A stretch of 34,757 bases of DNA from contig MTNR01000046.1 of assembly GCA_002011495.1 (NCBI GenBank), positions 11,898 through 46,654 of the forward strand, in the 5' to 3' direction. The notes under the pieces are model-generated. The model saw nothing but the letters and a program-made list of their open reading frames with translations, was not told the DNA's origin and searched no databases. Below, one piece after another: positions 444-22,442 of this stretch. Source of the DNA: Dehalococcoides sp. JdFR-56. GTDB lineage: Bacteria; Chloroflexota; Dehalococcoidia; Dehalococcoidales; RBG-16-60-22. Position numbers and translations under genes: made by a program. Numbering within the stretch: the first letter of the stretch is position 1; each line of letters begins with the position of its first letter.

Positions 444-3122
444 CTAGCCAGAGGAGCCGTTTTTCTCGACCCTCACCGCGCATACCTTGAGCTCCGGTAT
501 TCTGGCCACCGGGTCGAGCGCTGGGTTGGTCAGCTGGTTGGTCGGGCTTTCGGCAAAATGGAAGGTCATGAACACCACGCCCACTGGTGAGGCCTGAGTT
601 AGTCTAGCTTTCGCTGTTACCTCTCCCCGCCGTGAGACCACCTTTACCGTATCCCCGTCAGCGATGCCCAAAGCTTCGGCATCCTGCGGGTTGATCTCCA
701 CTAGCTCCTCCCCCCGAAATACGTTGAGCCCTTTCACCTTCCGGCTCATGGTGCCAGTGTGGAAGTGGAATAGGCTGCGGCCGGTGGTCAGCAGCAGCGG
801 ATACTCGTCATCAGGTAGCTCCATAGATGGCTTAAATTCGAGCGGCATGAATTGTCCTTTGCCCCGGGTGAAGGCCTGGGTATGGAGGATGGGCGTGCCC
901 GGATGTTCTTTGGTCGGGCAGGGCCACTGGAGTCCCCCTTTCTCCAGCCGGCGGTAGGAGATGCCCCCGTAGCTGGGAGTGAGCCGGGCGATCTCATCCA
1001 TGATTTGAGAGGGACCGGCAAAATTGAAGCCTTGGCTCCCCATCTTCTTTCCAATCTGGCAGATAATCCACCAGTCCGGCTTGGCGTTGCCGATGGGCGC
1101 TATCGCCCTTCTTACCCGCTGCACCCGCCGTTCGGTATTGGTGAAGGTGCCATCCTTCTCGGCGAAGGTCACCCCGGGAAGAACGATGTGCGCCAGCCGC
1201 GCCGTCTCGCTGAGGAAAATATCCTGAACCACCAGGAACTCCAGCCTTCGTAGCGCCTCCTCAGCATGCTTGGCCTGAGGTTCGCTCAGTATCGGGTTCT
1301 CCCCCATGATATACATCGCCTTGATTTGCCCGTTATAGGCAGCTTCAAAGACATCGGTTACCGCCAGTCCAGGTTTAGTCGGCGGGAGTGAGCAGCCCCA
1401 TCCAGCCTCAAACTTTTCCTTGACTGCTTCGCTCGTGACCGCCTGATAGCCGGGGTAGACGTTGGGCAAAGCACCCATATCGCAGGCGCCCTGCACGTTG
1501 TTCTGGCCTCGCAGCGGATTTATCCCGCTCCCCGGCTTACCCACGTTTCCGGTGAGCATAGCTAGGTTAGCCGTGGCGATGACATTATCCGTGCCGTGGG
1601 AATGCTGGGTGATGCCCATGGCGTAGAAGATAGCCGCCGGGCGACTGGTGGCATAGAGACGGGCGGCAGCAACTATCTGTTCTTGGGGTACCCCGGTAAT
1701 CCGGCTGACAAAATCAAGGTCAAAGGCCTGGAGAGACGATTTCAAGGCGTCAAAGTTCTCGCAGCGCTCGGCGATGAAGGCGGCGTCAAACAGCCCCTCA
1801 TCGACGATGACGCGGCACATCCCCATGAGCAGGGCAACATCGCTCCCCGGGCGCTGCCGCAACCAGATATCGGCATGGCGGACAAGCTCTATCTCACGGG
1901 GATTGGCCACGATGAGCTTGGTGCCCCGGCGCACCGCCTTCTTCATCTCAAAGCCGATAACCGGGTGGGCCTCGGTGGTGTTGGTGCCGATGGCGAAGAT
2001 ACAGGCGGCATCCTTGATGTCACCGATGGAGTTGGTCATCGCCCCGCTGCCGAAGGTGGTGGCCAGCCCAGCTACCGAGGGGGAGTGGCAGAGGCGGGCA
2101 CAGTGGTCAATATTATGCGTCCCCAGCACGGCCCGCCCCAGCTTCTGAAGGAGGTAATTCTCTTCATTGGTGCACTTGGCTGAGGAGAGAATGGCTATCT
2201 CCTCGGGCTGGTAGCGTCTCAGTCTAGCGGCGACCTCATCCAGCGCCTCCTCCCAGCTAACTTCAGCAAACTCCCCGTTTCGTCTCACCAGAGGGCTAGA
2301 AAGGCGCTCCGGGTGGTGGATAAACTCGGTGGCGCCAAAGCGGCCTTTGACGCAGAGGCGGCCCATATTGACCTGATTATCTCTATCTCCGCGGACGCTG
2401 ATTATCTCCCCGTCTCTGATGCCCAGGTACATCTGACAGCCCACACCACAGTAGGGGCAGGTGGTCAGCACCTCGCGCGTTGGCTGGCGTGTCTCCTTGG
2501 GCACGAGGGCAGCTACCGGGCAGCGCACCACGCATTCGCCGCAGGACTTGCAGATTGATTCCATGAAGGGCTTATCACCAAAGGTAGCCACTTTGGCGGT
2601 GTAACCACGGTAGGCCAGGTCAATCGCCCCAACGCCGGTTACCTCATGGCAGGTGCGCACGCATTTGGCGCAGAGGATGCAGTAATTGCGGTCAAGGTCA
2701 AAGAAGGGGTTGGTGGTATCAACCGGGAAAGAGCGGTTGGTTCGGGGGAAGCGCCGCTCGGTGATGCCGAGGTAGGCGGCTACCTTCTGCAGCTCACACT
2801 GCTGATTTTTGCGGCAGGTGAGGCAGTCCATGGGGTGGTCGGCAATGAGCAAATCAATCACGGTGCGGCGTACCTCGTTGACGGCGGGGGTTTCAGTATG
2901 CACCACCATATTATCCGTGGCGGGGGTGGTGCAGGCGGTGGGCAGGCCGCGCATGCCTTCGATCTCCACCACGCAGAGCCGGCAGGACCCGTAGGGCTCC
3001 AGGTCAGGGTCGGCGCAGAGGGTGGGGATATAGATGCCCGCCGCCTGGGCGGCCTCCAGCACCGTCGCCCCCCTGTTCGCTTTGACTTTGATTCCGTTGA
3101 TGATTAGCCTGATTTCGCTCAT
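444..3122 (-). CDS. fdhA: Formate dehydrogenase catalytic subunit, Cys type, with NuoG-like N terminus
   Basis: 892 aa. Domains in order: plant-type 2Fe-2S ferredoxin (C36, C47, C50, C64); NuoG-type His/Cys cluster (H96, C100, C103, C109); two 4Fe-4S clusters (C148/151/154/158 and C191/194/197/201); then a molybdopterin-bisMGD oxidoreductase domain with its own 4Fe-4S cluster (C222, C225, C229, C257) and a C-terminal dinucleotide-binding domain. The active-site segment HCARLCHSPSV has Cys at about residue 345 followed by the conserved His. In E. coli FdhF and many acetogens that position is selenocysteine; here the codon is TGC. The enzyme interconverts CO2 and formate with Mo or W. I chose the ATG at 3122 because it gives the ferredoxin-type start MSEIRLII and overlaps the preceding stop as ATGA; the longer frame to 3215 adds an atypical, unconserved-looking N terminus. 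It is the last gene of the Wood-Ljungdahl operon and forms a complex with the three genes before it. Confidence 0.93.
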   Translation of the reverse strand: MSEIRLIINGIKVKANRGATVLEAAQAAGIYIPTLCADPDLEPYGSCRLCVVEIEGMRGLPTACTTPATDNMVVHTETPAVNEVRRTVIDLLIADHPMDCLTCRKNQQCELQKVAAYLGITERRFPRTNRSFPVDTTNPFFDLDRNYCILCAKCVRTCHEVTGVGAIDLAYRGYTAKVATFGDKPFMESICKSCGECVVRCPVAALVPKETRQPTREVLTTCPYCGVGCQMYLGIRDGEIISVRGDRDNQVNMGRLCVKGRFGATEFIHHPERLSSPLVRRNGEFAEVSWEEALDEVAARLRRYQPEEIAILSSAKCTNEENYLLQKLGRAVLGTHNIDHCARLCHSPSVAGLATTFGSGAMTNSIGDIKDAACIFAIGTNTTEAHPVIGFEMKKAVRRGTKLIVANPREIELVRHADIWLRQRPGSDVALLMGMCRVIVDEGLFDAAFIAERCENFDALKSSLQAFDLDFVSRITGVPQEQIVAAARLYATSRPAAIFYAMGITQHSHGTDNVIATANLAMLTGNVGKPGSGINPLRGQNNVQGACDMGALPNVYPGYQAVTSEAVKEKFEAGWGCSLPPTKPGLAVTDVFEAAYNGQIKAMYIMGENPILSEPQAKHAEEALRRLEFLVVQDIFLSETARLAHIVLPGVTFAEKDGTFTNTERRVQRVRRAIAPIGNAKPDWWIICQIGKKMGSQGFNFAGPSQIMDEIARLTPSYGGISYRRLEKGGLQWPCPTKEHPGTPILHTQAFTRGKGQFMPLEFKPSMELPDDEYPLLLTTGRSLFHFHTGTMSRKVKGLNVFRGEELVEINPQDAEALGIADGDTVKVVSRRGEVTAKARLTQASPVGVVFMTFHFAESPTNQLTNPALDPVARIPELKVCAVRVEKNGSSG

Positions 3123-5338
3123 CGCTGGACAGCTACCCTTTCTCGCCGCTGGTATTTGCTCTTGCCATGCTTGGGCGGCAGCGGTGGCGGGGTGATGAGG
3201 CACCTCACCGCGCACTGCAGGCAGCGTTTGCCTTCTTGGATGGCGTCAGCCTCCTTCAGGCCAAGCTCTACCTCCTCAAAGCCTTTGATGCGCTGTTCGG
3301 CGGGGAGAGCGGGCATCTTCACCCTGGGCAGGTTGAAGAAGCCCTCCGTCTTGCCCACGCAGGGGTCAAATTTGGCCTCTGGGGCTAGCACCTCTTCAAT
3401 ATCTCCGCTCCCGCCAAGGTACTTATCAATGGCCGCTGCGGCTCTTCGGCCGGCGGCAATCGCCTCAATCACCGAAGCCGGGCCACTCACCGCATCACCA
3501 CCGGCCCAGACACCTTTGACGTTGGTGGCCAGTGTGGTTGAATCGGCCTGGATGATGTTGCCTCTGCCAAGTTTTAGCTTGAAGCCATCGGGGATATCCG
3601 GCATCTGCCCGATGGCGGCGATCACCGAGTCAAACTCGGTGGCAAATTCGCTCCCTTTTAGCGGTACCGGGCGGCGCCGTCCGCTGGCGTCAGGCTCACC
3701 GAGCTCCATGCGGATGCAGGTCAGTTTTAGGCGCTTACCTGCCCGGTCGATTCGCACCGGCGCGGCCAGGTAGAGAATCTCAATGCCTTCTTCTAAAGCG
3801 GCCTCCACCTCCTCTGGGCTGGCGGGCATCTCCGCCCGGGTGCGGCGGTAGATAATGGTAACTTGCTTGGCTCCGATGCGCAGGGAAACGCGCGCCGCAT
3901 CAATGGCCACATTACCCCCACCGATGACCGCCACCTTTTCCCCGACGTCAACTTTCTTGCCCAGGTTCACCTCCCGCAGGAAGGTGGCGCCATCAAAGAC
4001 GCCGGGGTTATCTTCACCCTCCACCCCCAGCTTCATGCCACGGTGGGCTCCAGGGGCGGCGAAAACGGCGTCAAAGCCCTGCTCAAAGAGACTGTCAATG
4101 GACTCAACCCTGGTGTTCAGTTTGATTTCAACGCCGGCCTCTTTTATTATCTCAATCTCTTCATTGAGCTTTTCCGGCGGCAGGCGGTAATCTGGGATGC
4201 CCACCCGCATCATGCCCCCAGGCTCTGGGAGCGCCTCAAAAACGGTAACTGAATGTCCCTGTTTGGCTAGGTAGTAACCAGCGGTGAGTCCCGCCGGTCC
4301 TGAGCCGATGATGGCCACCTTTTTCCCGGTGGGTGGGGATTTCTTGGCGCGTTTCTTCCACTCCTCTCCGCCGCGCTCCGCCGCTGCCCACTTGAGGAAT
4401 TTGATGGAGATGGCTTCATTTAAGGCCTGGCGGCGGCAGGCCAGCTCACAGGGATGGATGCAGACCCGCCCCAGGACCCCAGGGAAGGGGACCCGTTCCC
4501 GAATCACGGCCAGGGCTTCAGCAAACTTGCCCTCACCGCAGAGTCTGACGTAGCGGGGGACATCAATGTGGGCCGGGCAAGCGTAGCTGCACGGGTTGGT
4601 CAGCTCCTCATGGTTGATCTCCGGCCGCCATTTGGCATCCTTGTCAATCAGAGCCCCGGTGGGGCAGACCTCAACGCAGGCGCAGCAGTACTTGCAGCCT
4701 GATTCGGCGAGGGTGCCATTCGCTGGCTCAGGCCAGCGCCCTTGCTCATGGTCAACCATCTTGATGGCTTCAATGCCCCGTATCTCCTTGCAGGCTCTGA
4801 CGCACCGGCTGCAGCTGATGCACAGGTTGTAATCTCGCTCGTAGAGGGGGTTTTCTCTGTCCACCGGGAGACCCCGGTACCTCCAGCTCACCTCCTCCCC
4901 CTCCAGCCCGATGTAGTCAACCACCTGCTGGAGCTCGCACTGCCCGTTGTAGGGGCAGAGCACGCAGCGCTGGGTTACCGCCACGTTGCGTAGACAGATA
5001 TCATACGGGCTGCAGCGGTGCCGGCGCTCGCAGGTAAGGCACTCGCAGGGATGATAGGCTAGGAGCTGCTTCAGTGCCTCCCGTCGTGCCTCCTGCAATT
5101 GGAAGGTGCTGGTGCGCACCACCATACCGTCAGTGGCCTGGGTGTTGCAGGCGGTGGGGAACTCCTCCATGCCCTCAATCTCCACTAGACAGAGCCGGCA
5201 GGAGTCATCTGGGGTCAGCATGGGGTGATAGCACAGGGTTGGAATGTAGATGCCCAATTTGCTGGCTGCCTCCAGCACCGTTGTCCCTTTGCTGACCTCA
5301 ACCTTTTTATGGTCGATGGTTAAAGTAATCATCTCCAT
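3119..5338 (-). CDS. Iron-sulfur flavoprotein: NuoG-type ferredoxin module fused to GltD/NfnB-type FAD oxidoreductase
   Basis: 739 aa. Residues 1-235 carry a 2Fe-2S ferredoxin (C36, C47, C50, C64), a His/Cys cluster (H96, C100, C103, C109), a cysteine-rich insert (C115, C125, C128, C134) and two 4Fe-4S clusters (C173/176/179/183 and C215/218/221/225). From about 245 it becomes a glutamate-synthase small-subunit-like protein: the linking Cys residues (C250, C254, C293, C297, C301), an FAD Rossmann motif (GSGPAG, 345-350) and a second Rossmann motif (GGGNVAIDAA) for NAD(P)H. A terminal Cys cluster (C706, C709, C713) follows. GltD-like proteins oxidise or reduce NADPH through FAD, as in NfnB. 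Here it probably connects NAD(P)H to the formate dehydrogenase and NuoEF-like subunits. The start at 5338 is preceded by AGAGG six bases away; Met3 is a second possible start. Its stop overlaps the fdhA start. Co-substrate and any bifurcation are inference. Confidence 0.88.
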   Translation of the reverse strand: MEMITLTIDHKKVEVSKGTTVLEAASKLGIYIPTLCYHPMLTPDDSCRLCLVEIEGMEEFPTACNTQATDGMVVRTSTFQLQEARREALKQLLAYHPCECLTCERRHRCSPYDICLRNVAVTQRCVLCPYNGQCELQQVVDYIGLEGEEVSWRYRGLPVDRENPLYERDYNLCISCSRCVRACKEIRGIEAIKMVDHEQGRWPEPANGTLAESGCKYCCACVEVCPTGALIDKDAKWRPEINHEELTNPCSYACPAHIDVPRYVRLCGEGKFAEALAVIRERVPFPGVLGRVCIHPCELACRRQALNEAISIKFLKWAAAERGGEEWKKRAKKSPPTGKKVAIIGSGPAGLTAGYYLAKQGHSVTVFEALPEPGGMMRVGIPDYRLPPEKLNEEIEIIKEAGVEIKLNTRVESIDSLFEQGFDAVFAAPGAHRGMKLGVEGEDNPGVFDGATFLREVNLGKKVDVGEKVAVIGGGNVAIDAARVSLRIGAKQVTIIYRRTRAEMPASPEEVEAALEEGIEILYLAAPVRIDRAGKRLKLTCIRMELGEPDASGRRRPVPLKGSEFATEFDSVIAAIGQMPDIPDGFKLKLGRGNIIQADSTTLATNVKGVWAGGDAVSGPASVIEAIAAGRRAAAAIDKYLGGSGDIEEVLAPEAKFDPCVGKTEGFFNLPRVKMPALPAEQRIKGFEEVELGLKEADAIQEGKRCLQCAVRCLITPPPLPPKHGKSKYQRRERVAVQR

Positions 5339-5349
5339 GCTGCACCTCT

Positions 5350-7275
5350 TTAAGCTTGGGTATTTGGTTTTGCTGCTGCCACCGGGACTGGTTCCTTGGG
5401 AACCTCTATCTCCTCTCCAGAGACCTTGACCACCGCCCCAAACCGCTCTGGGCAGACGTCAAGGCAAGTGCCACATTTGATGCATTTATCTTGGTCAATC
5501 ACGTGCACCATCCGCTTGCCGCCAGCTATGGCTTCTGCGGGGCAGTCCCTCAGGCATATGCCGCAACCCTGGCATTTATCGGGCAGGATATAGTAAGAGA
5601 TGAGCTCCGTGCAGGCCAAAGCTGGGCAGCGTTTTTCCTTGATGTGCGCCTCATACTCCTCCCGGAAGTAGCGGATGGTGGTCAGTACCGGGTTGGGGGC
5701 GGTGCCACCCAAGGCGCAGAGTGAGCCGGCTTTGACCCGTTGGCTCAGCTCAAGGAGCAGGTCAATATCCTCAGGTTTGCCTTGGCCCCGGCAGATATTC
5801 TCCAGCATATCGAGCATCTGTTTGGTTCCCAGGCGGCAGGGAACGCACTTACCGCAGGACTCAGCTTGGGTGAAGGAGAGGAAATAGCGGGCCACGTCAA
5901 CGATGCAGGTATCCTCATCCATGACCACCATACCACCCGAGCCCATAATGGAGCCGGCCGCGGTCAGTGACTCATAGTCAACCGGGAGGTTCAATTGGCT
6001 TGCCGGGAGGCATCCCCCGGATGGGCCACCGGTCTGGACGGCTTTGAAGCGTTTGCCCCCAGGGATGCCGCCGCCAATATCATAGACGATTTTCTCCAAA
6101 GAAATTCCCATGGGCACCTCAATGAGCCCGGTGCGGTTTATCTTCCCAGCCAGGGCGAAGGTTTTGGTGCCCTTGCTTTTCTCGGAGCCGTAGCTTGAGT
6201 ACCAATCTGCGCCTCGCTGCATGATGGCCGATACATTGGCCCAAGTCTCCACATTATTGATATTGGTCGGTTTACCCCACAGGCCAGACTGGGCGGGGAA
6301 GGGAGGACGGGAGCGAGGCATGCCTCGCTTGCCCTCAATCGAGGCCATCATCGCCGTCTCTTCACCGCAGACAAAGGCTCCTGCCCCCTCCTTGATTTTT
6401 AGGTGAAGGCTTAAATTGGAGCCGAGGATATTATCACCTAATAGTCCGTACTCTGCCATCTGCTGGAGGGCCAGCTTCAGACGCTGGATGGCCAGGGGGT
6501 ATTCAGCGCGCACGTAGATATAGCCCTCGGTGGCCCCGATGGCATAGGCGCCGATGAGCATGCCTTCCAGAACCGCGTGCGGGTCTCCCTCCAGAAGCGA
6601 GCGGTCCATGAAGGCGCCTGGGTCGCCCTCATCAGCATTGCAGATGATATATTTTATAGTGCCCGGGGACTTACGGCAGAATTCCCACTTTAGCCCGGTG
6701 GGGAAGCCAGCCCCGCCCCGGCCCCGCAAGCCCGATTTCTTGATTTCCTCGATGACCGCCTCTGGCGATAGGCTCAGCGCCCTCTCCAGGCCGCTGTAGC
6801 CACCGTTGGCGATGTACTGATTGATGTTTTCTGGGTCAATAATCCCACAGTTGCGCAGGGCGATTCGTACCTGGGGTTTGAGCATGGGCAGTTCAAAGAG
6901 CTTGGGTATGCCCTCGATATCTCCCTCACCCAGCGTGCCCAGGGCCAAATCAGCCCGCGGGTTATCATGGATAAGGTAATCCTCTATCAGCTGGGGGATG
7001 ATTTCGGGGGTGACATTGCCGTAAGAGATGCGCGGACGGCCGGGTTTAACTATGTCAACCAGGGGTTCAGCGTAGCAAAGCCCGATGCAGCCCACCTGAG
7101 TGATGGTGGCTTCCAGGTTATGCTGGGCTAGGGTAGCCTTGATTGCCTCAAGCACCGGCCCAGCACCAGCCGCCCGGCCGCAGGTGGCGCTGCCGACCAA
7201 GATATGGGGTTTATCGCTTTTCCGCTGCGCTTCCCACTCGGCGATTGCCCGGTTTTTAATCTGAGTAAAGTTCAT
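5350..7275 (-). CDS. NuoF/HydB-like NADH-binding FMN iron-sulfur subunit
   Basis: 641 aa. The N terminus is a thioredoxin-like 2Fe-2S domain with only three obvious Cys (C32, C63, C67). The NADH/FMN-binding domain has the signature GRGGAGFPTG (about 185-194), followed by the SLBB region and the NuoF 4Fe-4S motif SCGKCVPC (C474, C477, C480, with C520). A C-terminal 2x[4Fe-4S] ferredoxin domain (C568/571/574/578 and C598/601/604/608) is typical of HydB of bifurcating hydrogenases and of NADP/NAD formate dehydrogenases, and is absent from plain NuoF. Role: electron exchange between NAD(H) and the iron-sulfur chain of the formate dehydrogenase complex in the cytoplasm. It sits 14 bp after the NuoE-like gene and 11 bp before the GltD fusion. 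No membrane complex I subunits are nearby, which argues against a respiratory complex I. Confidence 0.92.
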   Translation of the reverse strand: MNFTQIKNRAIAEWEAQRKSDKPHILVGSATCGRAAGAGPVLEAIKATLAQHNLEATITQVGCIGLCYAEPLVDIVKPGRPRISYGNVTPEIIPQLIEDYLIHDNPRADLALGTLGEGDIEGIPKLFELPMLKPQVRIALRNCGIIDPENINQYIANGGYSGLERALSLSPEAVIEEIKKSGLRGRGGAGFPTGLKWEFCRKSPGTIKYIICNADEGDPGAFMDRSLLEGDPHAVLEGMLIGAYAIGATEGYIYVRAEYPLAIQRLKLALQQMAEYGLLGDNILGSNLSLHLKIKEGAGAFVCGEETAMMASIEGKRGMPRSRPPFPAQSGLWGKPTNINNVETWANVSAIMQRGADWYSSYGSEKSKGTKTFALAGKINRTGLIEVPMGISLEKIVYDIGGGIPGGKRFKAVQTGGPSGGCLPASQLNLPVDYESLTAAGSIMGSGGMVVMDEDTCIVDVARYFLSFTQAESCGKCVPCRLGTKQMLDMLENICRGQGKPEDIDLLLELSQRVKAGSLCALGGTAPNPVLTTIRYFREEYEAHIKEKRCPALACTELISYYILPDKCQGCGICLRDCPAEAIAGGKRMVHVIDQDKCIKCGTCLDVCPERFGAVVKVSGEEIEVPKEPVPVAAAKPNTQA

Positions 7276-7289
7276 AGGCTGGCTCTTTC

Positions 7290-7769
7290 CTAATCTCTTT
7301 TCTTGTCACCCAGGATTTGGGCCACTTTTTTCGGGGTCATGCGCCCGTAGACATTGTCGTCAACCACCATGACCGGGGCCAGGGCGCAGGAACCAAAGCA
7401 GGCGATGGTTTCCAGGCTGTACTCCAGGTCATCAGTGGTCTCTCCCGGCTTGATGCCCAGGCGTTTCTCCACCTCCTCCAGGATGTGTGGCGCTCCCCTG
7501 ACATGGCAGGCTGTGCCACGGCACAGCCTCACCTTCTTTTTCCCGGTGGGGAAGAATTTGAACTGGGCGTAGAAGGTGCTCACCCCAAAAACGGCGCTCT
7601 CTGGGAGGTGCAGGAACCTGGCCACCTTCTGCATTGCCTCTTGGGGCAGGTAGCCGAGCGCTTCCTGAACTTCCTGCAGGATGGGGATAAGCTCATCCCT
7701 GTTTGCGGAATGGTGGGATAAAATCTCGTCTAATTTATCTTTGACCTCAGTTTCGGCCAGGATTATCAC
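7290..7769 (-). CDS. NuoE/HydC-like 2Fe-2S subunit
   Basis: 159 aa, the usual length of the family. The thioredoxin-like 2Fe-2S site is complete: C83-x4-C88 (CRGTAC) and C124-x3-C128 (CFGSC). This subunit partners the NuoF/HydB-like protein encoded next and feeds electrons to or from its FMN. The start is ambiguous. The GTG at 7769 overlaps the stop of the preceding gene as GTGA, but a strong AGGAGG lies right on top of it, ideally spaced for a non-standard codon slightly further in (ATC or CTG). I keep GTG because the overlap pattern matches the rest of the operon and because NuoE N termini vary. Confidence 0.92.
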   Translation of the reverse strand: MIILAETEVKDKLDEILSHHSANRDELIPILQEVQEALGYLPQEAMQKVARFLHLPESAVFGVSTFYAQFKFFPTGKKKVRLCRGTACHVRGAPHILEEVEKRLGIKPGETTDDLEYSLETIACFGSCALAPVMVVDDNVYGRMTPKKVAQILGDKKRD

Positions 7770-8425
7770 CTCCTGCTCTTTAGCAGTTTGACCAGCTTCC
7801 AGGCAGCGCTCTGGCAGAGATAAATGATATCCTCGGTGGGGAGGTAGTCACAGATGGTGCGGTCAAACATGATGTTTCCTTCGGGAGGGAATTCCTCATC
7901 GCCCCGCCACAGAACCAAGGTTAGCGGCACCCGTGGTAGGGCGTTTAAGGTGGCCGCGGCGTCGCCGAACTCAGCTTCCCGGCCACCCAGTAATTTGGCC
8001 ATCTCCACTAGGTGATGAGGCTCGCTGCCGAAGCTGCTGACCAGGGGCTTTACCGCTCGCTTGTAGAAGGTGGGGAAATAGCCAGCGCCCTCGGGCAGCT
8101 CCTTGAAGGATATCAGCTTGCCCGAGAGGGGCGTGCCCTTTGCCTGGGTGAAATAATGAAGGAGGAGGATTTTATCTGGCAGTGGCACCTCCTCACCTTT
8201 GTCCATGAAGGAGATGGTACCGTCAGGGATGGTGAGCAGATATGGCTGATTTAAATATGCGATGACCGCCGCTTTTTGGGCCTCCTGATACTGGGCGCCA
8301 CTTCGGCGGCATTGCTCCTCAATATCATCAATCTGGGCGAGCTCCTCACGGGCCAGCCGGAAGGCCAGCTCATAGCCATAGTCATCTTTTTGACTATTGG
8401 GTAGTGTCAACGTTCTCTTTTCCAT
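7766..8425 (-). CDS. DUF3786-like protein, function unknown
   Basis: 219 aa, soluble, with no signal peptide or membrane segment. It starts MEKRTLTLPNSQKDDYGYELAFRLARE. From memory the N-terminal YELA...A pattern and overall length fit the DUF3786 family, which I associate with anaerobes carrying corrinoid or acetyl-CoA pathway genes; a profile search is needed. There are only two Cys, far apart, so it is not an obvious metal or Fe-S protein. It lies between acsE and the formate dehydrogenase module. Its stop overlaps the NuoE-like start (GTGA), so it is translationally coupled to the electron-transfer subunits. An accessory or assembly role for the pathway is inference from position only. 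The upstream gap to acsE is 40 bp, the longest in the operon, and its ribosome binding site is weak. Confidence 0.72.
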   Translation of the reverse strand: MEKRTLTLPNSQKDDYGYELAFRLAREELAQIDDIEEQCRRSGAQYQEAQKAAVIAYLNQPYLLTIPDGTISFMDKGEEVPLPDKILLLHYFTQAKGTPLSGKLISFKELPEGAGYFPTFYKRAVKPLVSSFGSEPHHLVEMAKLLGGREAEFGDAAATLNALPRVPLTLVLWRGDEEFPPEGNIMFDRTICDYLPTEDIIYLCQSAAWKLVKLLKSRR

Positions 8426-8465: not shown

Positions 8466-9344
8466 CTATATTTCCAGCCAGGAGTGAGAGTAGAGCGACT
8501 CACCACTCAGCACCCGCACCGTTTTGGCGTATTTGACCTCCTCCTCAGTTAGGGAGGAAAAATCAGGCTTTTCCCCATCCATTATCCGGTGCACTAGCTC
8601 TACGATCTCCGGTTTTTCCCCTCTGGCGAGCTTAACTAGCTCAGCATCAAAGGCGTCAACGATAGCCGAGTACAGCCCGTAGCGCATCAGCATGACCATG
8701 TAGGTCCGGTTGAGCCAGGGCCGGAGGTGGGCGGGGGTGCCGTTGGAGATGTTAGATAGGCCCACCGTGGATTTGCAGCCTGGGGCGATCTCCCCCAGCA
8801 TGGCCATGAACTCTAGGCACGCCTTTACCTGGTTTATCTCCACTGACACCGGGCTGACGATGGGGTCAATCCAGATCTTCTCATTGGGGATGCCCAGTTC
8901 ATTGGCTTTATAGATGAAGTCAACGGTGTGCATGGCCCGCTCGTTGGCATCACGGGGCATTCCCTCGGCACCCCAGAGCAGCGCGATGACATCAGCATCG
9001 TACTCCTTGGCCAGCTTGAGCCCAGGCTCCATTCGGTCTGGCTGCAAGGATATGGAGTTAATCAGGGGCCGGTTCTTGGCCACCTTCAGCCCCGCCTCCA
9101 TGGCGGCCAGATTGGTGGTATCCAGGGATAAGGGCTTATCGGTGACCTCCTGTACTGTGTTAACTGCCCAGGTCATCAGTTCCTCTCCGGCCTTCCGGGC
9201 CGGGCCGATGTTGAGGTCAAGGTAGTCCACCCCGGCCTCGGCTTCCGCCTTGGCCAGTTCCTGAATCGGTTTGGGGTCCCGCTCTTTGAGCGCCGGGCCG
9301 ATGGTCTTTGACATAATGTTTATGTTTTCCCCAATAAGAACCAT
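8466..9344 (-). CDS. acsE: Methyltetrahydrofolate:corrinoid iron-sulfur protein methyltransferase
   Basis: 292 aa TIM-barrel pterin-binding methyltransferase that moves the methyl group from methyl-THF to the Co(I) centre of the corrinoid iron-sulfur protein. The start MVLIGENINIM and the motifs DLNIGP, LDTTN, WIDPIV and GLSNISNG are the pterin-site elements of AcsE/MeTr. The C terminus is longer than the roughly 262-aa Moorella enzyme: about 30 extra residues, ending LYSHSWLEI. The ATG at 9344 follows a strong AGGAGG. It is 9 bp after acsC, the gene for its corrinoid substrate protein. Confidence 0.96.
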   Translation of the reverse strand: MVLIGENINIMSKTIGPALKERDPKPIQELAKAEAEAGVDYLDLNIGPARKAGEELMTWAVNTVQEVTDKPLSLDTTNLAAMEAGLKVAKNRPLINSISLQPDRMEPGLKLAKEYDADVIALLWGAEGMPRDANERAMHTVDFIYKANELGIPNEKIWIDPIVSPVSVEINQVKACLEFMAMLGEIAPGCKSTVGLSNISNGTPAHLRPWLNRTYMVMLMRYGLYSAIVDAFDAELVKLARGEKPEIVELVHRIMDGEKPDFSSLTEEEVKYAKTVRVLSGESLYSHSWLEI

Positions 9345-9353
9345 CTTTCCCTC

Positions 9354-10700
9354 CTATGGTGTCCACGCCTTGACATAGGCTGGAATATGGGCGCCTTCTC
9401 TGGGGCCGATGAGAATCTGCCAGTCAGGCAGCTCCTCCTCCAGGCCGCCGCTTTCCACGGCGGCGTAGCCCGGGATAACCAGTTTGCGGTGCTTGATTTT
9501 GCTCTCAATGCCGCACTTCTTGACAAAGGGGGCGATGACATCAGCGCTGAACTTACCGGCAGCCCAGGCGGTCATCACGGAGAGCCCCTCGGTGTCCTTG
9601 ACCAGAAGCCAGCTGGGCACCCGGCTGGTCTCCAGATACCCAGAGACAAGGAAGTAAGTGAGCGAGAAGTTGGTGGTAATCAGCACCGGTGAATTCTCCG
9701 TCGGGCCACCGATCTCGTAGATGCCCTCCGAGGTGGCCAGCGGGCGCTGCGGGTCGGTGAAGATGTTCATCCTTTCCACGAGCAGCGGGAACAGGCTCTC
9801 CCCGCGGAAGTCAGAGAGGACGATGATGCCACCGTATTTGGCGATGAACATGGAGGCGATGACCGCCTCCTTCATCGGGTCATCGGTCATCTCGCAGGGG
9901 AAGGTGATGGTGGGAAAGCCGAAGGGGCGGAACTTTTTGTTCAGGGCGGCGCTGCGGATGATCACCTGGTCCTCAAATGCCTGGCGGGTGGTCCTGGCCC
10001 CGGAGTCAAGGACGATGTTCTTTAAGCCGGCCTGGGTCAGTTTGGTGGTGAGCTCAGCGAGCTCCTCAAGGCCGGCGGCCTTCACCGCTACCGGGCAGGA
10101 ATTCTCTTTGGCCAGCTCGGCCACGCGGTCTATATTATCCCTGGTGGCGGCATAAAGCAGTGGTTTTTCGCTGGCGCAGGCCTTCAGGCCAGCGGCCAAG
10201 ACATCAGGGTTATCGCTCATCAAAATCAAGCTCAAGCCACCCTTCTGCTTGGCTTGGCCCACCACACCTTCAAATTTTGCCGGGTCTCCAGACTCACCCT
10301 TTACCGCCACCAGCTCCGGGCGGAGGGTGAGCCCAACTCTCTCATACTGGAACTGACTTGCCTTCTCCAGCCTGGCCTTTATCTCGGCCTCATCCATGGT
10401 GTCCTTTATCAGGATGGCTATGCCCGGGGGATTCTCAAACCTTTTTTCGTGGCGGAACATCACCGTCTCCCCGCCGATTTTGAGGGCGCTCTCCCCAGTG
10501 CCGATGGTGACTGGCAGGATAGGCGGGGCCGACGCCTCAGCCAGTTTCTCTTTCGCCTCCTCGGAGACGTGGGGGCAGGCGGCTAGTTCCACCTTGCCTG
10601 AGGCCAGGCTCATGGCGAAGGCAAGACAGGTGGGCACGCCGCATTCCCCACAGTTGGTCTTGGGCAGTAACTTGAATATCTCAATTCCGGTAAGTGGCAT
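9354..10700 (-). CDS. acsC: Corrinoid iron-sulfur protein large (gamma) subunit
   Basis: 448 aa. The N-terminal 4Fe-4S motif has the exact C-x2-C-x4-C-x16-C spacing (C17, C20, C25, C42) that holds the low-potential cluster used to reactivate Co(II). It is followed by a TIM barrel and a C-terminal corrinoid-binding domain. With AcsD it carries the methyl group from AcsE to acetyl-CoA synthase. Good Shine-Dalgarno (AGGAG, 6-nt spacing). It lies 14 bp after acsB and 9 bp before acsE. Confidence 0.96.
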   Translation of the reverse strand: MPLTGIEIFKLLPKTNCGECGVPTCLAFAMSLASGKVELAACPHVSEEAKEKLAEASAPPILPVTIGTGESALKIGGETVMFRHEKRFENPPGIAILIKDTMDEAEIKARLEKASQFQYERVGLTLRPELVAVKGESGDPAKFEGVVGQAKQKGGLSLILMSDNPDVLAAGLKACASEKPLLYAATRDNIDRVAELAKENSCPVAVKAAGLEELAELTTKLTQAGLKNIVLDSGARTTRQAFEDQVIIRSAALNKKFRPFGFPTITFPCEMTDDPMKEAVIASMFIAKYGGIIVLSDFRGESLFPLLVERMNIFTDPQRPLATSEGIYEIGGPTENSPVLITTNFSLTYFLVSGYLETSRVPSWLLVKDTEGLSVMTAWAAGKFSADVIAPFVKKCGIESKIKHRKLVIPGYAAVESGGLEEELPDWQILIGPREGAHIPAYVKAWTP

Positions 10701-10714
10701 GGCAGACTCCTTTC

Positions 10715-12922
10715 TTAGCCCAGTATCGGCTCCATACTCAGGGCGGGATGCCCTTTCTCCTGTAGGAAGGGGAGAATCTCTTCCTCAGTAACGCCGATGG
10801 TCTCATCGGCGATCATCTCCAGCAGATTGGGCACCCCCATCTCCTCGGCCCTTACTTTCAGCCGCTCACCAATCTCCTCTTTGAGCATCTTGGGCATCCA
10901 GACCATTCGCAGTAGACCGCCATCGCCGATAAGGAATTTGCGCTGGGTGATGTTGTATTTGCCGTGGCCGACAAAGCCTGGGGTGCTCACTCCGCCGCCG
11001 ATCGTTCCGGCTAGGGTGGTGAACTTCATGCCGCAGGGGGTATCTCCGGTATATTCCCGGTTTACCGTCATCACCCCGTTGCACAGGGGCAGGATGGCGG
11101 CGATGCACTCGCAGCAGCCGCAGGTGGTCATCGGGTCGTGGACGATGCTGTAGAAATAGTAGTGGTCTATCTTGCCACGGGAGGCCTTGGTGACGAACTC
11201 GTCAACGCCCTTCCACCGCCCCAGCTTGGGGTCAAGGCACTCCCCCTTGGGCACCGGCTGATTCGGGCCGGTGGGGTTGATCTCATAGGCGGCCTTGCAG
11301 TCCATCCAGTTGTAGGAGCCGCAGAGCCCGGTTCGCTCCGGGCTGATGACGCAAACGTGGCTGGGGGCAAAGGACTGACATAGAGTGCAAGAGTAGTAGA
11401 TTTCGGTGGTTTCATCGGTCATGCCCTCAATGCGGGCATCCCGGGCGGCGTAAACCGCCTTGGCCTTCTCCACTATCTCTCTTACCTTATCCTCTTCGGT
11501 GTAGAGCTTCACCTGCATCTTATCAAAGATGCGACCGAAGTCCTGGTGCAGCTTGGCGTGGAGGATGGTGCCGATGTGAGATAGCTTGAAGCCCTTTTCC
11601 ACCGCCTGCTTGCTCACGCGCAGCCAGGCGATGTCCCTCTGCCCGATGTGCATCAATCCTTGGGCGTAGTTGATGAGGTGGTGAATCTGCCGCTCCAGGA
11701 TGGGCTCATAGTCCTCCTGCATGTTTCTCCCGGCGACCTCAACCGCTATGGCCAGGGGCAGTTGGGAGCCGGGGGGGACATCGGTTATCTCCGGCCCAAT
11801 CACCTCAATCTTGCCGTCCTCCACCTCCTCCATCCGCTTGCTGGTGACCCACTCCACCATCGGGGTTCGGCCGCCGCCGGCCTCAAGATAAATGTCATCC
11901 CCGCGCACCCTCTCCCCCTCAAAGGCCGGGCCGAAGGCGACTGGGATGGGCACTTCAGCCACGGTTACCTTGAGCCCTCTGACCTCAATGGCTTTGGCCA
12001 CGATCTGGTCGTGAGGGATGTTGGAGACGACGTGCTCGTAGGTGGTGATGCCGGTGGGCAGGACCTCAGGTATCGGGGTATCGGCGATGGTGGGGAAGCC
12101 AAAGTTTATCGCCCCGGCGGCGTTGGCGTACCACTCGTCGGTGACGAAGCCCAGGGGCATGGCGAAGGCGAAGATGCGGTCCTTATTGTAGATGAGCACC
12201 TTTCGGTAGTCGCCGGGCTCAATGCCACCGAAGGAGAGAGCCGCCCTGGTGGCGAAGCCCATGGCGAATACCGCCGAGGTTATATCTGGGCCGAAGGAGA
12301 CCAGGCGCGTGGGCCAGCCAATCTGTACCCCCGCCTCGACAAGCTGCTCGGCAAAGCGCTTCCCGTTATAGTCCGCGGCCATGAAGACGTAGATATTCTT
12401 CTGCTGGAGCTCCTGGGCGATCTGCGCCGCAATCTCCTTGGTTGGGGCTGCCCCCAGGATGGCGGCAAACCCCGGGGCGGTGCCATCAACAAACTCAATG
12501 CCACGCTTTCTCATGATGACGTCATCGGCCGCCCCGAGCCAGATCTTCTCATCGGTGACATCTTCCCCTTTGAGGTAGAAGTCAGGCTGCTCCAGGTATC
12601 TTATGGCTTCAATGATCTCTTCAGCGAAGAAGGTGGCCATGCCGGCATCAAGGGCAGGCGCCAGATAAGGCAGGGGATGCTCCTCCCTCACCGGTGGCGG
12701 GAGCAAGGCCTTACACCGCTTCAGTATCCTCTCCATATCCCCCAGCTTTTCCACCTTCTCCCCCAGGATCCCGTAGATCACCGGGAGATAGTAGGCGGTA
12801 TTGGGGAAGCCGACTGGTTCGTTGGCCCCCCATTTGTCCATGGCCTGCTGCCACTTTTCTTCGGCCTGGCCAACGATCTTATACGCGCCTCTGATCGCGG
12901 CTGAGGCAATAATCTTGGACAT
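10715..12922 (-). CDS. acsB: Acetyl-CoA synthase (CO dehydrogenase/acetyl-CoA synthase beta subunit)
   Basis: 735 aa, the full-length bacterial form including the N-terminal domain that docks on CO dehydrogenase; archaeal homologues lack it. The A-cluster ligands are all present with the Moorella spacing: C512, C515, C524 and C534 for the 4Fe-4S cube, and the Cys-Gly-Cys at 601-603 that holds the distal nickel. The enzyme condenses CO, the corrinoid-bound methyl group and CoA to acetyl-CoA, or runs in reverse. It is placed directly after the CO dehydrogenase gene, with a 33-bp gap. Confidence 0.98.
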   Translation of the reverse strand: MSKIIASAAIRGAYKIVGQAEEKWQQAMDKWGANEPVGFPNTAYYLPVIYGILGEKVEKLGDMERILKRCKALLPPPVREEHPLPYLAPALDAGMATFFAEEIIEAIRYLEQPDFYLKGEDVTDEKIWLGAADDVIMRKRGIEFVDGTAPGFAAILGAAPTKEIAAQIAQELQQKNIYVFMAADYNGKRFAEQLVEAGVQIGWPTRLVSFGPDITSAVFAMGFATRAALSFGGIEPGDYRKVLIYNKDRIFAFAMPLGFVTDEWYANAAGAINFGFPTIADTPIPEVLPTGITTYEHVVSNIPHDQIVAKAIEVRGLKVTVAEVPIPVAFGPAFEGERVRGDDIYLEAGGGRTPMVEWVTSKRMEEVEDGKIEVIGPEITDVPPGSQLPLAIAVEVAGRNMQEDYEPILERQIHHLINYAQGLMHIGQRDIAWLRVSKQAVEKGFKLSHIGTILHAKLHQDFGRIFDKMQVKLYTEEDKVREIVEKAKAVYAARDARIEGMTDETTEIYYSCTLCQSFAPSHVCVISPERTGLCGSYNWMDCKAAYEINPTGPNQPVPKGECLDPKLGRWKGVDEFVTKASRGKIDHYYFYSIVHDPMTTCGCCECIAAILPLCNGVMTVNREYTGDTPCGMKFTTLAGTIGGGVSTPGFVGHGKYNITQRKFLIGDGGLLRMVWMPKMLKEEIGERLKVRAEEMGVPNLLEMIADETIGVTEEEILPFLQEKGHPALSMEPILG

Positions 12923-12955
12923 ACTTCCGTAACCCTCCTTCTTTGGCGCTAGGGC

Positions 12956-14926
12956 TTAAACTGCTTCCAGCTCACGCCTCATCGCCATATCGTAGAGAAT
13001 CCTTTCTCTGGCCTTGTCAATGCCCAGAGCTTTGCGTTTCTTGTCAATGTGGGCGATCATGAGCTGGGCCATCTTCAATGGGTCGGGTTCAAAGGCCCAC
13101 ATACCACCGTACTTCTCTTCATAGTCCTTGAAGAGATAGTCAGTTACCTCTTTGCTGCCGATGGTGGGCCAGTTGACGCCAAACACGGTATAGACCCCCG
13201 AGGCGACGAAGTATTCACCGATGGAGATGGCTTTTTCGCTCATCCACTCGGGTGCGGCGCCGGCGGCGGGGAGGTCACTGATATCGTCACCCAGCCCGCC
13301 ATCCTTGACCATGGCGGTGGCGGCCATCAAAATGCGGCTGTTGTCAATGCAGGCGCCGAGGTGCAGCACCGGGGGAATCCCCACCGCCTCGCAGACGGAG
13401 GCCAGCCCCTCGCCGGCGTATTCCTTGGCTGCCTCGGGAACCATGAGCCCGGCCTTGGCACAAGCCATGGCGGCACATCCAGTCTCCAGAACCAGCACGT
13501 CATTCTTGATGAGTTCCTTGACCAGGGTAACGTGGATGTCATCGTGGGTGACCCGGACATTGTTGCAGCCAACCACCCCGGCCACGCCCCGGATGCGCCC
13601 GTTGATGATGTTCTCGTTCAAGGGCCGGTAGGAGGCGCGGAATAGCCCGCCCAGCAGGTAGTTGATGGTTTCGTGGCTGAAACCAGCGATGAGGTCCGTT
13701 TTGTGGCTCGGGATGCGGACGTTCTTGCCTCTATTGGGGTAATTATCGATCACGGCCCTTAAAATTGCCTTGGCTGAGGCCATGGCGTTGCGTTCGTCAA
13801 ACTCCATGTGCGTGGCGCCCTCAATGCGGGCTCTGGGGTCGGTGGTGATGATCTTGGTGTGGTAGCAGCTGGCGACTTCAGTCAGCCCCTGCATGATGCA
13901 CTGGACGTCAACCACCATCGCCTCCACGGCTCCGGTAACTATGGCCAGCTCCTGCTGGAGGAAATTCCCGGCGATGGGCACCCCGTGGCGCATCAGTATC
14001 TCGTTGGCGGTGCAGCACATGCCGGCCAGGTTGATTCCCTTGGCCCCCTTGGACTTGGCGTACTCAATCATCTCCGGGTCCTGCGCCGCCACTGCCAGCA
14101 TCTCGGCGAGGTGAGGCTCATGCCCGTGAATGATGAAGTTCACCTCATCTTCTTTGAGCACCCCCAGGTTTATCTGGCTGAGCACTGGCGCTGGGGTGCC
14201 GAAGAGGATGTCCTGCAGTTCAGTGGCGATCATGCTGCCACCCCAGCCGTCAGCCAGGGCGGCTCTGGTGCCCTGGCGAAGCAGGTTCTGGTAGTCTTGG
14301 TCAACGCCCATGTGGGTGCGGTGCATGATTTCCACCACTTCCCGGTCAATGCCCCGGGGGGCGACGCCCTGCTTACGCCAGATTTCCTGGCGCTTCAGGG
14401 GTGCTCGTTTTAAGAAAAGGAGCTCTCCTTCCTGTTTGCCGAACTCCTCCATCAGCTTTTCGCCAATATCAATGGCGATCTCATTATTAGAGCGGTCGCC
14501 GATCTCAACCCCCAGGTCCAGGGCTAGCTGAAGCAGCTTCTGCTCGTCTTTCACCTGAAAGTCAGCTGATTCTCCTCTCGCCGCCAGCAAAAAGGCCTCC
14601 ACTACTCGGCGGCCGTGGTCGCCATGGGCAGCAGCTCCAGCGGCAATCTTGCGGGTGAAATAGCGGGCGGCGATGGTCTCCGCGGTGGCCCCACAGACGC
14701 CGGTTCGCTTCTTCTTTTCCTCCGGTGTTTCCTCTTTTCCTTTGGGCATGGGCACCCGGCAGGGGCCCATGGCGCAAAGGCTGCAGCAGCTGCCCTCAGC
14801 CCCGATGGGGCAGGGTTTGATAGCCTCGGCACGCTCAAAGACGATTCTAACCCCATCCTGGGTGGCTTTCTCGATCATGTCAACGGTGGCTTGGTCAATG
14901 CTTTTAGCTTCCTTCTCCTCTGCCAT
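12956..14926 (-). CDS. cooS: Ni-containing CO dehydrogenase catalytic subunit
   Basis: 656 aa; in this context also called acsA. The D-cluster (C39, C47) and B-cluster (C48, C51, C56, C78) cysteines are in the N-terminal segment CPIGAEGSCCSLCAMGPC and onward. C-cluster candidate ligands are seen in order in HGHEPH (His), AGMCCTA, DVQCIM, VGCNNV, TGCAAMAC and LGACIDN. The enzyme interconverts CO2 and CO and passes CO through the internal tunnel to AcsB. The neighbouring acsB, acsD and two CooC-type ATPases support membership of the bifunctional CODH/ACS complex. Confidence 0.97.
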   Translation of the reverse strand: MAEEKEAKSIDQATVDMIEKATQDGVRIVFERAEAIKPCPIGAEGSCCSLCAMGPCRVPMPKGKEETPEEKKKRTGVCGATAETIAARYFTRKIAAGAAAHGDHGRRVVEAFLLAARGESADFQVKDEQKLLQLALDLGVEIGDRSNNEIAIDIGEKLMEEFGKQEGELLFLKRAPLKRQEIWRKQGVAPRGIDREVVEIMHRTHMGVDQDYQNLLRQGTRAALADGWGGSMIATELQDILFGTPAPVLSQINLGVLKEDEVNFIIHGHEPHLAEMLAVAAQDPEMIEYAKSKGAKGINLAGMCCTANEILMRHGVPIAGNFLQQELAIVTGAVEAMVVDVQCIMQGLTEVASCYHTKIITTDPRARIEGATHMEFDERNAMASAKAILRAVIDNYPNRGKNVRIPSHKTDLIAGFSHETINYLLGGLFRASYRPLNENIINGRIRGVAGVVGCNNVRVTHDDIHVTLVKELIKNDVLVLETGCAAMACAKAGLMVPEAAKEYAGEGLASVCEAVGIPPVLHLGACIDNSRILMAATAMVKDGGLGDDISDLPAAGAAPEWMSEKAISIGEYFVASGVYTVFGVNWPTIGSKEVTDYLFKDYEEKYGGMWAFEPDPLKMAQLMIAHIDKKRKALGIDKARERILYDMAMRRELEAV

Positions 14927-14958
14927 GCTACTTATCCCCCAATCTCTTCAGTTTCATC

Positions 14959-15906
14959 TTATTTCGTGGTAAGTTCAGTTATCATCTCCCGGATGAGCTT
15001 TATCGCCTCCGGGTGGCGCATGATTAAAACGTCAGCCCCCGCTAGTAACAAACACATGGCTGACATCGCCTCCAGCAAGATGCCTCTCTTTTTGGCATCC
15101 CCCATCTTGGGGTCTTCTGTCTCCGGGATTTTGACCTCCCGCGTCTTCCAGACCTCCTTGGCGATATTGCAGATGATGGGGAACTGGAGCTTCTCATCCT
15201 GCTGGGTCAGGGCGGCCATCCGCATTCGCTCCATCACCGAATAGGCGTACTCAATGCCGTAGCCGATGCCGCTGACGGTGGGGTCCATGATGATGAGCTC
15301 ATCGGGGACACCCAGATTGCCCAGAAGAATGTTGAGCTGCTTGGCCAGGTTGATATCTATCGGCGTTGAGGCGATCACGGTGTGCTGGTAGGCGATGGCC
15401 GCGGCGCCGATCTGCTTGTGGTCTCCTTCCTCAACCGGGCCGATGATCAGGTTCTTCCCGTGACAGAGCTCAGCCACCCTGCGGAAAACCTCAACGTCTT
15501 TGTCATGGTTGGCCGTGCCCCAAACGATGAGCGGGACATCGATGGCATCGGCCACCTTTTTCACCACCTGAGCCGCTTCATCAGCCCCACGGTCAAGGCC
15601 GTTGGGGTCGGTGCTGAGTAGCTGCAGGCAGATCATCTCCGCCCCGTAATCGTCTATACACTTCTTGGCCCAGGCGACCGGGTCATCGGTGACGCCGCTA
15701 AAGGGCTCCAAAGCGGCCTCAGGCCATTCCTCGGGAGGGCAGTCATAAACCTCCATGGCGATTCTGGGCGGATGGGGCATCTCGCCCTCAAAGAGGTAGA
15801 AGGGATAGGCGGTCTCCCCTCCGACGATGACCGCCTTGTCTCCCTGGCCCAGCTTTATCTCTTTGATCTTGCCGGTGTAGACGGTCTTTGGAATCTCAAA
15901 AGCCAT
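14959..15906 (-). CDS. acsD: Corrinoid iron-sulfur protein small (delta) subunit
   Basis: 315 aa TIM-barrel protein in the CdhD/AcsD family. Recognisable segments are AYPFYLFEGEMPHPP near the start, LLSTDPNGLD, and MDPTVSGIGYGIEYAYSVMERMR. It pairs with AcsC and caps the corrinoid. The ATG at 15906 has a clear AAGGAG six bases upstream. It lies 15 bp after the small unrecognised gene and 32 bp before cooS. Confidence 0.96.
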   Translation of the reverse strand: MAFEIPKTVYTGKIKEIKLGQGDKAVIVGGETAYPFYLFEGEMPHPPRIAMEVYDCPPEEWPEAALEPFSGVTDDPVAWAKKCIDDYGAEMICLQLLSTDPNGLDRGADEAAQVVKKVADAIDVPLIVWGTANHDKDVEVFRRVAELCHGKNLIIGPVEEGDHKQIGAAAIAYQHTVIASTPIDINLAKQLNILLGNLGVPDELIIMDPTVSGIGYGIEYAYSVMERMRMAALTQQDEKLQFPIICNIAKEVWKTREVKIPETEDPKMGDAKKRGILLEAMSAMCLLLAGADVLIMRHPEAIKLIREMITELTTK

Positions 15907-15921
15907 TGCTGTCTCCTTTGT

Positions 15922-16140
15922 TTAGGCTGGCGTTTTTCGCTTTTCGCTGCCAAACCAGTCTTTGCTGTACCAGTATCTCAGGGCGGTGCGCAGGTATTTG
16001 AGCTTTTCCTCCCGGCTCCCCAGTTTCTGGCACCACCTCCCCATCTCCTCGCCCTCTGGTTTACCTTTCTCAAAGGTGGCTCCCAGCACCTCCACTTTGT
16101 CTCGGCCGGGAGCGCTCTTCTCCTCAATCTGGTATTCCAT
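15922..16140 (-). CDS. Small unrecognised protein in the acs operon
   Basis: 72 aa. I do not recognise it. It is highly charged, with one Cys and an aromatic C-terminal half (YLRTALRYWYSKDWFG), and no membrane segment or signal peptide. It looks real because it fills the space between folD and acsD with gaps of 12 and 15 bp, is in the operon direction, and has one of the best ribosome binding sites in the cluster (AAAAGGAGGGTGAC before the ATG). It could be a small subunit or assembly factor of the corrinoid protein or CODH/ACS complex; that is inference from position alone. Confidence 0.72.
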   Translation of the reverse strand: MEYQIEEKSAPGRDKVEVLGATFEKGKPEGEEMGRWCQKLGSREEKLKYLRTALRYWYSKDWFGSEKRKTPA

Positions 16141-16152
16141 GTCACCCTCCTT

Positions 16153-17040: not shown

Positions 17041-17065
17041 TTGTTTTGCTCCTTTAGGCTAAGTT

Positions 17066-19800: not shown

Positions 19801-19835
19801 CCACCTTCCTGTTTTTGGGTCATCCCAGCCCAGCT

Positions 19836-21599: not shown

Positions 21600-21622
21600 G
21601 GATACCTCCTGTCTTTCGTTTT

Positions 21623-22417: not shown

Positions 22418-22442
22418 CAATGTCTTGCTTCTGACATAATTA

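Follow-up and report, generated by a model that had tools for sequence, protein, structure and literature searches.

The formate dehydrogenase genes of the window

The sequence analysed in this work (the window) is a stretch of 34,757 nucleotides from Dehalococcoides sp. JdFR-56, a bacterium of the order Dehalococcoidales which seems to fix carbon anaerobically. On the minus strand of the window, a Wood-Ljungdahl operon carries a set of four formate dehydrogenase (FDH) genes immediately after acsE and a DUF3786 gene. The set consists of nuoE (7290-7769), nuoF (5350-7275), a gene for a NuoG-N/GltD fusion protein (3119-5338, referred to as the GltD gene), and fdhA (444-3122). We lean, with modest confidence, towards the view that these four genes would encode one soluble FDH complex with three carrier ports, for NAD(H), ferredoxin, and NADP(H). 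What the sequence comparisons show is the genes, the motifs, the domain layouts, the fusions, and the swaps.

All four proteins had been claimed in an earlier note on this DNA, and all four are identified on the minus strand by their matches in Pfam, NCBIfam, and the Protein Data Bank (PDB). The earlier note had also described the genes as all translationally coupled. The DUF3786 gene overlaps nuoE by 4 nt and the GltD gene overlaps fdhA by 4 nt, where the ATG of fdhA lies over the GltD stop codon. However, nuoE and nuoF are separated by 14 nt, and nuoF and the GltD gene by 11 nt, so that wording is slightly strong. The interval from 444 to 8425 also contains a fifth gene that had not been listed, the DUF3786 gene on the minus strand (7766-8425; PF12654, 1.8e-55), which is further recognised by the gene order in relatives.

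FdhA is the catalytic subunit of 892 aa. Its best start is the ATG at 3122, compared with the GTG at 3215 in the mechanical call. FdhA scores 872 bits against TIGR01591 (cut-off 666) and has Molybdopterin and Molydop_binding domains. Its active-site motif is ARLCHS, and FdhA is therefore of the Cys type. The N-domain is NuoG-like with matches to Fer2_4, NADH-G_4Fe-4S_3, and Fer4_Nqo3 in Pfam, which bears out the earlier description of this subunit. The domains of FdhA correspond to one [2Fe-2S] cluster, one His-Cys3 [4Fe-4S] cluster, two [4Fe-4S] clusters, and a proximal [4Fe-4S] cluster. NuoG-N and the FDH pterin domain are found in one chain, which is the layout that defines the Type 1 Fdh-Bfu enzymes (pterin FDH within BfuA).

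NuoE (159 aa, GTG start) is a [2Fe-2S] subunit of the HydC/StnA type. It matches PF01257 (4.6e-51), the NuoE domain that marks BfuC, and PRK07539.1-2 (160.9 bits, cut-off 141). NuoF (641 aa) is a subunit of the HydB/StnB type that consists of a thioredoxin-like N-domain, an FMN/NADH site, a linker CxxxxC, and a C-terminal 2x[4Fe-4S] ferredoxin domain with two CxxCxxCxxxC motifs. It is aligned nearly end to end with the bifurcating HydB/StnB chains 7t2r_B, 9bov_B, 9n5u_B, and 8oh5_B. The cluster cysteines, the linker CxxxxC, and both C-terminal [4Fe-4S] motifs are conserved in the printed alignments as inspected by eye, and the N-terminal [2Fe-2S] cysteines are also present. Both subunits are thus as the earlier note had described them, including the FMN, the NADH site, and the extra 2x[4Fe-4S] of NuoF. 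The BfuB subunits of the Bfu family are defined by FMN, SLBB, NADH_4Fe-4S, and ferredoxin domains (IPR011538, IPR019554, IPR019575, and IPR017896). The Pfam matches presumably correspond to these InterPro domains, and for BfuC to IPR002023. Three of the BfuB domains are clearly matched in NuoF (PF01512, PF10589, and Fer4). The [2Fe-2S] and ferredoxin-type domains that define BfuA are found in two proteins of the set, which are FdhA and the GltD protein.

The GltD protein (739 aa) consists of NuoG-N at about residues 1-245 and GltD at residues 248-710. The FAD motif and the second, NAD(P)H Rossmann motif that the earlier note had seen are both found by Pfam, alignments, and residue counts. In the PDB, the best counterparts of the GltD part are 9bov_A, 9n5u_A, 8oh5_C (StnC of the Sporomusa-type Nfn, StnABC), and the Nfn large subunits; the protein also has matches to NfnA. 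By alignment, the lysine at residue 316 is equivalent to K170 of StnC, a position near cluster C7 where NfnB has a glutamate. Among 66 GltD domains from the fetched loci, the glycines of the FAD and GGGN motifs are kept in 65-66, the Arg-Arg pair in 61, and the K170 equivalent in 62. A PyrK-like NfnA partner was not found among the identified genes of the operon. For this reason, and because the StnC-type lysine is kept, Nfn-type bifurcation at the GltD FAD is unlikely and was rejected as the leading idea; the genome does have an nfnAB-like pair at another place. The FAD of StnC is a non-bifurcating flavin, and bifurcation is performed by StnAB, as far as the available text of PMC10482914 describes it. 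By this likeness, the GltD flavin of the window is probably only an NADPH port and not a bifurcating site.

The NuoG-N of the GltD protein also has an insert with four extra conserved cysteines at about residues 90-135, within the His-Cys3 domain, which scores 21.9 bits (cut-off 27). The insert form is found in 21 of 27 NuoG-N/GltD proteins. The FdhA N-domain also has an insert form, both with and without NuoE/F, so the insert does not discriminate and was rejected as a marker of a NuoE/F partner. That these four cysteines would hold one more [4Fe-4S] cluster is only a guess.

Distribution of the modules among FDH loci

FdhA was searched in 156 genomes of the order and was matched in 114 at E<=1e-230. 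A total of 120 stretches, chosen from this and related searches, were fetched, where weaker paralogues and several fragments were left out. A script classed 103 loci, including the window, that have FDH as the main match; loci with fragments only (for example G017, G109, and G014) are outside this count. The active-site codon across the 103 loci encodes Sec in 47 and Cys in 53, and the motif was not found in three.

NuoE, NuoF, and a separate GltD are located beside FDH at five loci. A NuoF-GltD fusion is located beside FDH at 31 loci (five near a contig end), and an FdhA-GltD fusion is found at six. No module was found upstream of FDH at 21 loci (seven near a contig end). The NuoF and GltD modules are both beside the same FDH at 37 of the 103 loci (5 + 31 + G145), mostly as one NuoF-GltD fusion. 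A genome search for the same four-gene set had been proposed in the earlier note as a check, and the set does recur: G131 and G124 have the same order, G004 has a different one, and the set of G038 lacks the ferredoxin tail. The changes in gene order (G004 and G038) leave all four modules side by side. Two further apparent sets (G014 and G134) are cut by contig ends and were not counted. On the FDH tree, which has mixed support, parsimony gives 27 changes of locus class, and even close sisters (G050/G051 and G088/G089) differ.

Fusion proteins and exchange of the NuoF tail

Thirty-two NuoF-GltD fusion proteins were identified in the order, 31 of them encoded directly upstream of fdhA. As read from the sequences, GltD begins at the expected start of the ferredoxin domain, after the linker cysteines, and in each of the 32 proteins 3-6 residues separate the NuoF match from the GltD match. 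The ferredoxin tail is replaced by GltD in every one of these fusions, and none has a CxxCxxCxxxC motif anywhere. By comparison, 35 of the 43 unfused NuoF-type proteins have two such motifs. The other eight consist of two proteins cut by contig ends, three short second NuoF genes, and three FDH-linked proteins without the tail (G038, G105, and G055).

The tree of the NuoF core has 33 ferredoxin-tailed, 31 GltD-fused, and 8 tail-less proteins. The tail changed between ferredoxin and GltD at least 10 times on this tree by two-state parsimony, with the same result after nodes with support below 0.9 were collapsed, and three-state parsimony that included the tail-less NuoF paralogues gave 14 changes; errors in the draft assemblies could inflate both the swap counts and the fusion counts. 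In domain order the FdhA-GltD fusions follow StnC; their FDH domain, however, still matches at 55-74%. One of them, a protein of 1390 aa in G145, is preceded by NuoE and a NuoF with the ferredoxin tail. The presence of both kinds of fusion beside FDH points to parts that would belong to one machine.

The NuoF-GltD fusion was also used as the query against 400 genomes sampled from the phylum, of which 42 matched at E<=1e-200. Judged by query coverage and frame length, the fusion is full or nearly full in 18 of the 400 genomes (two in the order, seven elsewhere in the class, and nine in other classes) and partial in two more. An FDH-type gene is located nearby in 5 of the 14 fusion loci that were opened (G397, G530, G229, G336, and G260). 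The remaining opened loci have NuoG-like or unclear partners, or carbon monoxide dehydrogenase (CODH) nearby.

Divergence of the FdhA N-domain where NuoE/F are missing

NuoE/F are missing at the site in G007, G017, G008, and G019, where GltD and FDH are kept. At E<=1e-180, NuoF of the window type was not found in the drafts of G017, G008, and G019, and a weaker one was found in that of G007 (drafts 69-95% complete). The FdhA of these relatives is 56-64% identical to that of the window in the N-domain and 78-81% in the catalytic part (159 residues compared for G017). In G004, which keeps NuoE/F, the corresponding identities are 80% and 78%. Four other NuoF-bearing relatives have 62-72% in the N-domain and 69-77% in the catalytic part, a gap of 2-10 points. 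The GltD N-domain is 74-77% identical to that of the window in both groups. Because the FdhA N-domain diverges where NuoE/F are missing and the GltD N-domain does not, this comparison of nine genomes, which are few, suggests that NuoE/F may dock on the FdhA N-domain and that GltD may bind independently.

Proposed enzyme and alternative explanations

What we infer for the proposed enzyme concerns complex formation, cofactor specificity, bifurcation, stoichiometry, and direction. FdhA would oxidise formate or reduce CO2, and electrons would pass through the NuoG-N clusters to NuoE/NuoF. This core of the HydBC/StnAB type would split the electrons between two acceptors, NAD+ at the FMN site and, at the C-terminal 2x[4Fe-4S] domain, ferredoxin, or perform the reverse. 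NuoG-N/GltD would join the same iron-sulphur network and exchange electrons with NADP(H) through its non-bifurcating FAD. Formate/CO2, NAD(H), NADP(H), and ferredoxin would then come to equilibrium where the pathway begins, and the complex could supply FolD with NADPH, the presumed cofactor of FolD. FdhA is thus probably a bifurcating or confurcating FDH with an added NADP(H) port and a member of a modular series in the lineage. The earlier note had proposed one system for formate, NADH, NADPH, and ferredoxin. That the parts belong to such a system finds comparative support in the 32 NuoF-GltD fusions, the six FdhA-GltD fusions, and the co-retention through reordering; an Nfn-type role for the GltD flavin is not retained. 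A broader possibility, which we regard as tentative, is a single enzyme for four couples within a modular FDH family, where the low-potential exit of NuoF has been repeatedly exchanged between a ferredoxin-docking domain and GltD/NADP and where the fused forms would bifurcate formate electrons to NAD+ and NADP+ in place of NAD+ and ferredoxin.

Several findings weigh against the single complex. Most of the compared genomes are drafts split into numerous contigs, the SLBB domain of NuoF stays below its cut-off (23.9 bits against 27), and the support for the complex is comparative. NuoF without GltD is located upstream of FDH at 30 of the 103 loci (six near a contig end), and GltD without NuoF is found at ten (four clear, six cut near a contig end), so both pairings can work apart. 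A GltD is located at the operon site of G107 with no adjoining fdhA and with an MFS gene next to it. Stand-alone NuoG-N/GltD proteins, about 62-65% identical, are found in several members of the family (L046-L054), and neither FDH nor a NuoE/F module is close to them. Downstream of FDH, 15 loci have a separate GltD-only gene, and 13 of these loci also have an NfnA-like match with 54-80% identity. Some relatives therefore seem to pair FDH with nfnAB instead or as well, and a classical Nfn beside FDH would be another NADP route in the lineage. The partial sets, the lone GltD relatives, the G107 locus, and the nfnAB-like pairs would all fit two enzymes that share FdhA or only an operon, namely a Type 1 Fdh-Bfu (FdhA, NuoE, and NuoF) that serves NAD+ and ferredoxin, and an independent NuoG-N/GltD NADPH oxidoreductase that would have a different partner or form an alternative FDH complex. 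We consider this arrangement unlikely in the face of the two kinds of fusion (NuoF-GltD and FdhA-GltD) that adjoin the same FDH, the 4-nt overlap of the GltD stop and the fdhA start, and the co-retention in the reordered loci of G004 and G038.

NuoE, NuoF, and NuoG-N/GltD could instead form a bifurcating transhydrogenase of the Stn type with an independent FDH beside it. The three proteins have strong similarity to StnABC, and NuoE-NuoF-GltD is found without FDH in G036. The G036 locus also weighs against the single complex, as does NuoF-GltD at a cut contig in G031. However, the NuoG-N of FdhA should need an acceptor of the NuoF or GltD type, and no second NuoF of the window type was found in the source genome at E<=1e-180. 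FDH and GltD also persist without NuoE/F in G007, G017, G008, and G019. The source genome has its own nfnAB-like pair (a DHODB_Fe-S_bind protein beside a 464-aa GltD on contig C15), and a free-standing transhydrogenase is therefore not needed. The GltD protein of the window ends after GltD and lacks the C-terminal, inactive FdhF-like domain of the StnC layout; deletion of this domain prevented the purification of active StnABC, according to the available account. A Stn-type transhydrogenase is thus quite improbable here. One complex without bifurcation is very improbable for the window; it would reduce either NAD+ or NADP+, each independently, as do the Moorella NADP-FDH and the non-bifurcating FDH of Rhodobacter. 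It would agree with the loss of the ferredoxin domain in the 32 fusions and in the unfused, FDH-linked NuoF of G038, G105, and G055, which leaves many relatives unable to use ferredoxin there. In the NuoF of the window, however, neither the ferredoxin domain nor the set of N-terminal [2Fe-2S] cysteines has been lost, and the non-bifurcating homologues lack clusters B2-B5 in the available text of PMC9304861.

In acetogenesis, the first energetic barrier is the reduction of CO2 to formate, and the carrier that pays for it sets the ATP yield. In the source genome (92.75% complete), [FeFe] hydrogenase has no match and RnfC has none above the cut-off. Should a single enzyme link the three carriers, the redox balance of these bacteria would become testable. 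The relatives that exchange electron ports suggest a modular answer to the balancing of cellular electrons. The natural series on related cores (ferredoxin tail, GltD tail, GltD alone, and all together) could also show the role of the ferredoxin domain in the debated bifurcation by FMN and Fe-S clusters.

Comparison with known enzymes

StnABC (PDB 8OH5/8OH9; PMC7483475 and PMC10482914), as described in the available text, shares NuoE, NuoF with a ferredoxin tail, NuoG-N/GltD, and the lysine near cluster C7 with the window, and the Stn genes of S. ovata are likewise downstream of the Wood-Ljungdahl cluster. Further close PDB matches are 9BOV/9BP5 and 9N5U. GltD of StnC is inserted after the [2Fe-2S] domain and is followed by the inactive FdhF-like domain, whereas a complete NuoG-N precedes GltD in the window and FDH is a separate protein with the intact ARLCHS motif. 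The earlier note knew of no characterised enzyme with exactly this set. StnABC has three of the four parts together with an inactive FdhF-like domain, and the set is therefore less isolated than had been thought.

The Type 1 Fdh-Bfu, for example that of Carboxydothermus hydrogenoformans, has a NuoG-N FdhA, NuoF with ferredoxin, and NuoE like the window, but no GltD/NADP module is described for it in the available text of PMC9304861. In the same text, the bifurcating FDHs of Gottschalkia acidurici and Clostridium autoethanogenum also combine formate, NAD(P)+, and ferredoxin through a NuoF-type core, but their pterin subunit is apart from BfuA (Types 3 and 2, respectively) and no GltD is described. 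The Moorella thermoacetica NADP-FDH (SfrB2, SfrA2, and FdhF3) is likewise an FDH that works with NADP, but it has no NuoE/NuoF core in the available description (PMC13040438) and resembles the relatives with GltD and FDH only. Likened by description only, the window has a GltD subunit plus an added NuoE/NuoF core. SfrB proteins are taken here to be GltD-like. Thermococcus onnurineus Fdh3, an FDH that has been purified, contains an NAD(P)-binding subunit and works with NADP+, NAD+, and ferredoxin; its subunits differ from those of the window, and the available text names no NuoF or GltD and describes no bifurcation (PMC8965080).

Nfn-Bfu and Fdh-Bfu are listed as separate types in the available text of Schut et al. 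2022 (PMC9304861), the main text of which does not contain the words 'fused' or 'fusion' and matches 'two BfuA' only in 'two BfuABC-containing gene clusters'. A possibly bifurcating FdhAB has been proposed in marine Chloroflexi, where the available text mentions GltD solely as part of the discussion of Nfn (Sewell et al. 2017; PMC5736913). The four-part combination was not described in the literature searched; subscription journals, preprints, and supplements were outside that scope, and no firm claim of priority is made. Each part is known; within the literature covered, their combination and the exchange of tails appear to be new.

Other genes of the window and related loci

The rest of the Wood-Ljungdahl operon (8466-22420, minus strand) was assigned by NCBIfam and Pfam and consists of acsE, acsC, acsB, CODH, acsD, folD, a gene for a CooC-like ATPase, acsV, fhs, and a gene for a second CooC-like ATPase, where CooC-like is the label used in this work for CbiA-type ATPases. 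The DUF3786 gene is located between acsE and the FDH genes in the window and in a number of relatives. A weak DUF3786 match also adjoins fdhA in a metagenome-assembled genome of Desulforapulum, where a GltD-containing open reading frame adjoins a NuoG-N FdhA on the opposite strand (L010:9506-14409). The scan that gave this genome yielded 12 loci, of which eight are Pelagibacteraceae matches confined to NuoG-N and one is a metagenome-assembled genome of the Dehalococcoidia (L009).

The loci with a downstream GltD-only gene and an NfnA-like match include L117, L123, L129-L134, L136-L138, and L142. The one stand-alone GltD locus whose neighbours were tested (L050) has genes for an ABC transporter ATPase and a Na+/H+ exchanger beside it.

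Other GltD-containing multidomain proteins are encoded in the source genome (L160:7773-9896, and a 1479-aa frame at L163). Genes for NuoG-N, NuoE, NuoF, a MetV-like protein, and MetF are located in a row on contig C7 of the source genome (L161:7942-11918). This row apparently encodes a methylene-tetrahydrofolate reductase with its own NADH module, unlike the methylene-tetrahydrofolate reductase types that are linked to Rnf or Hdr.

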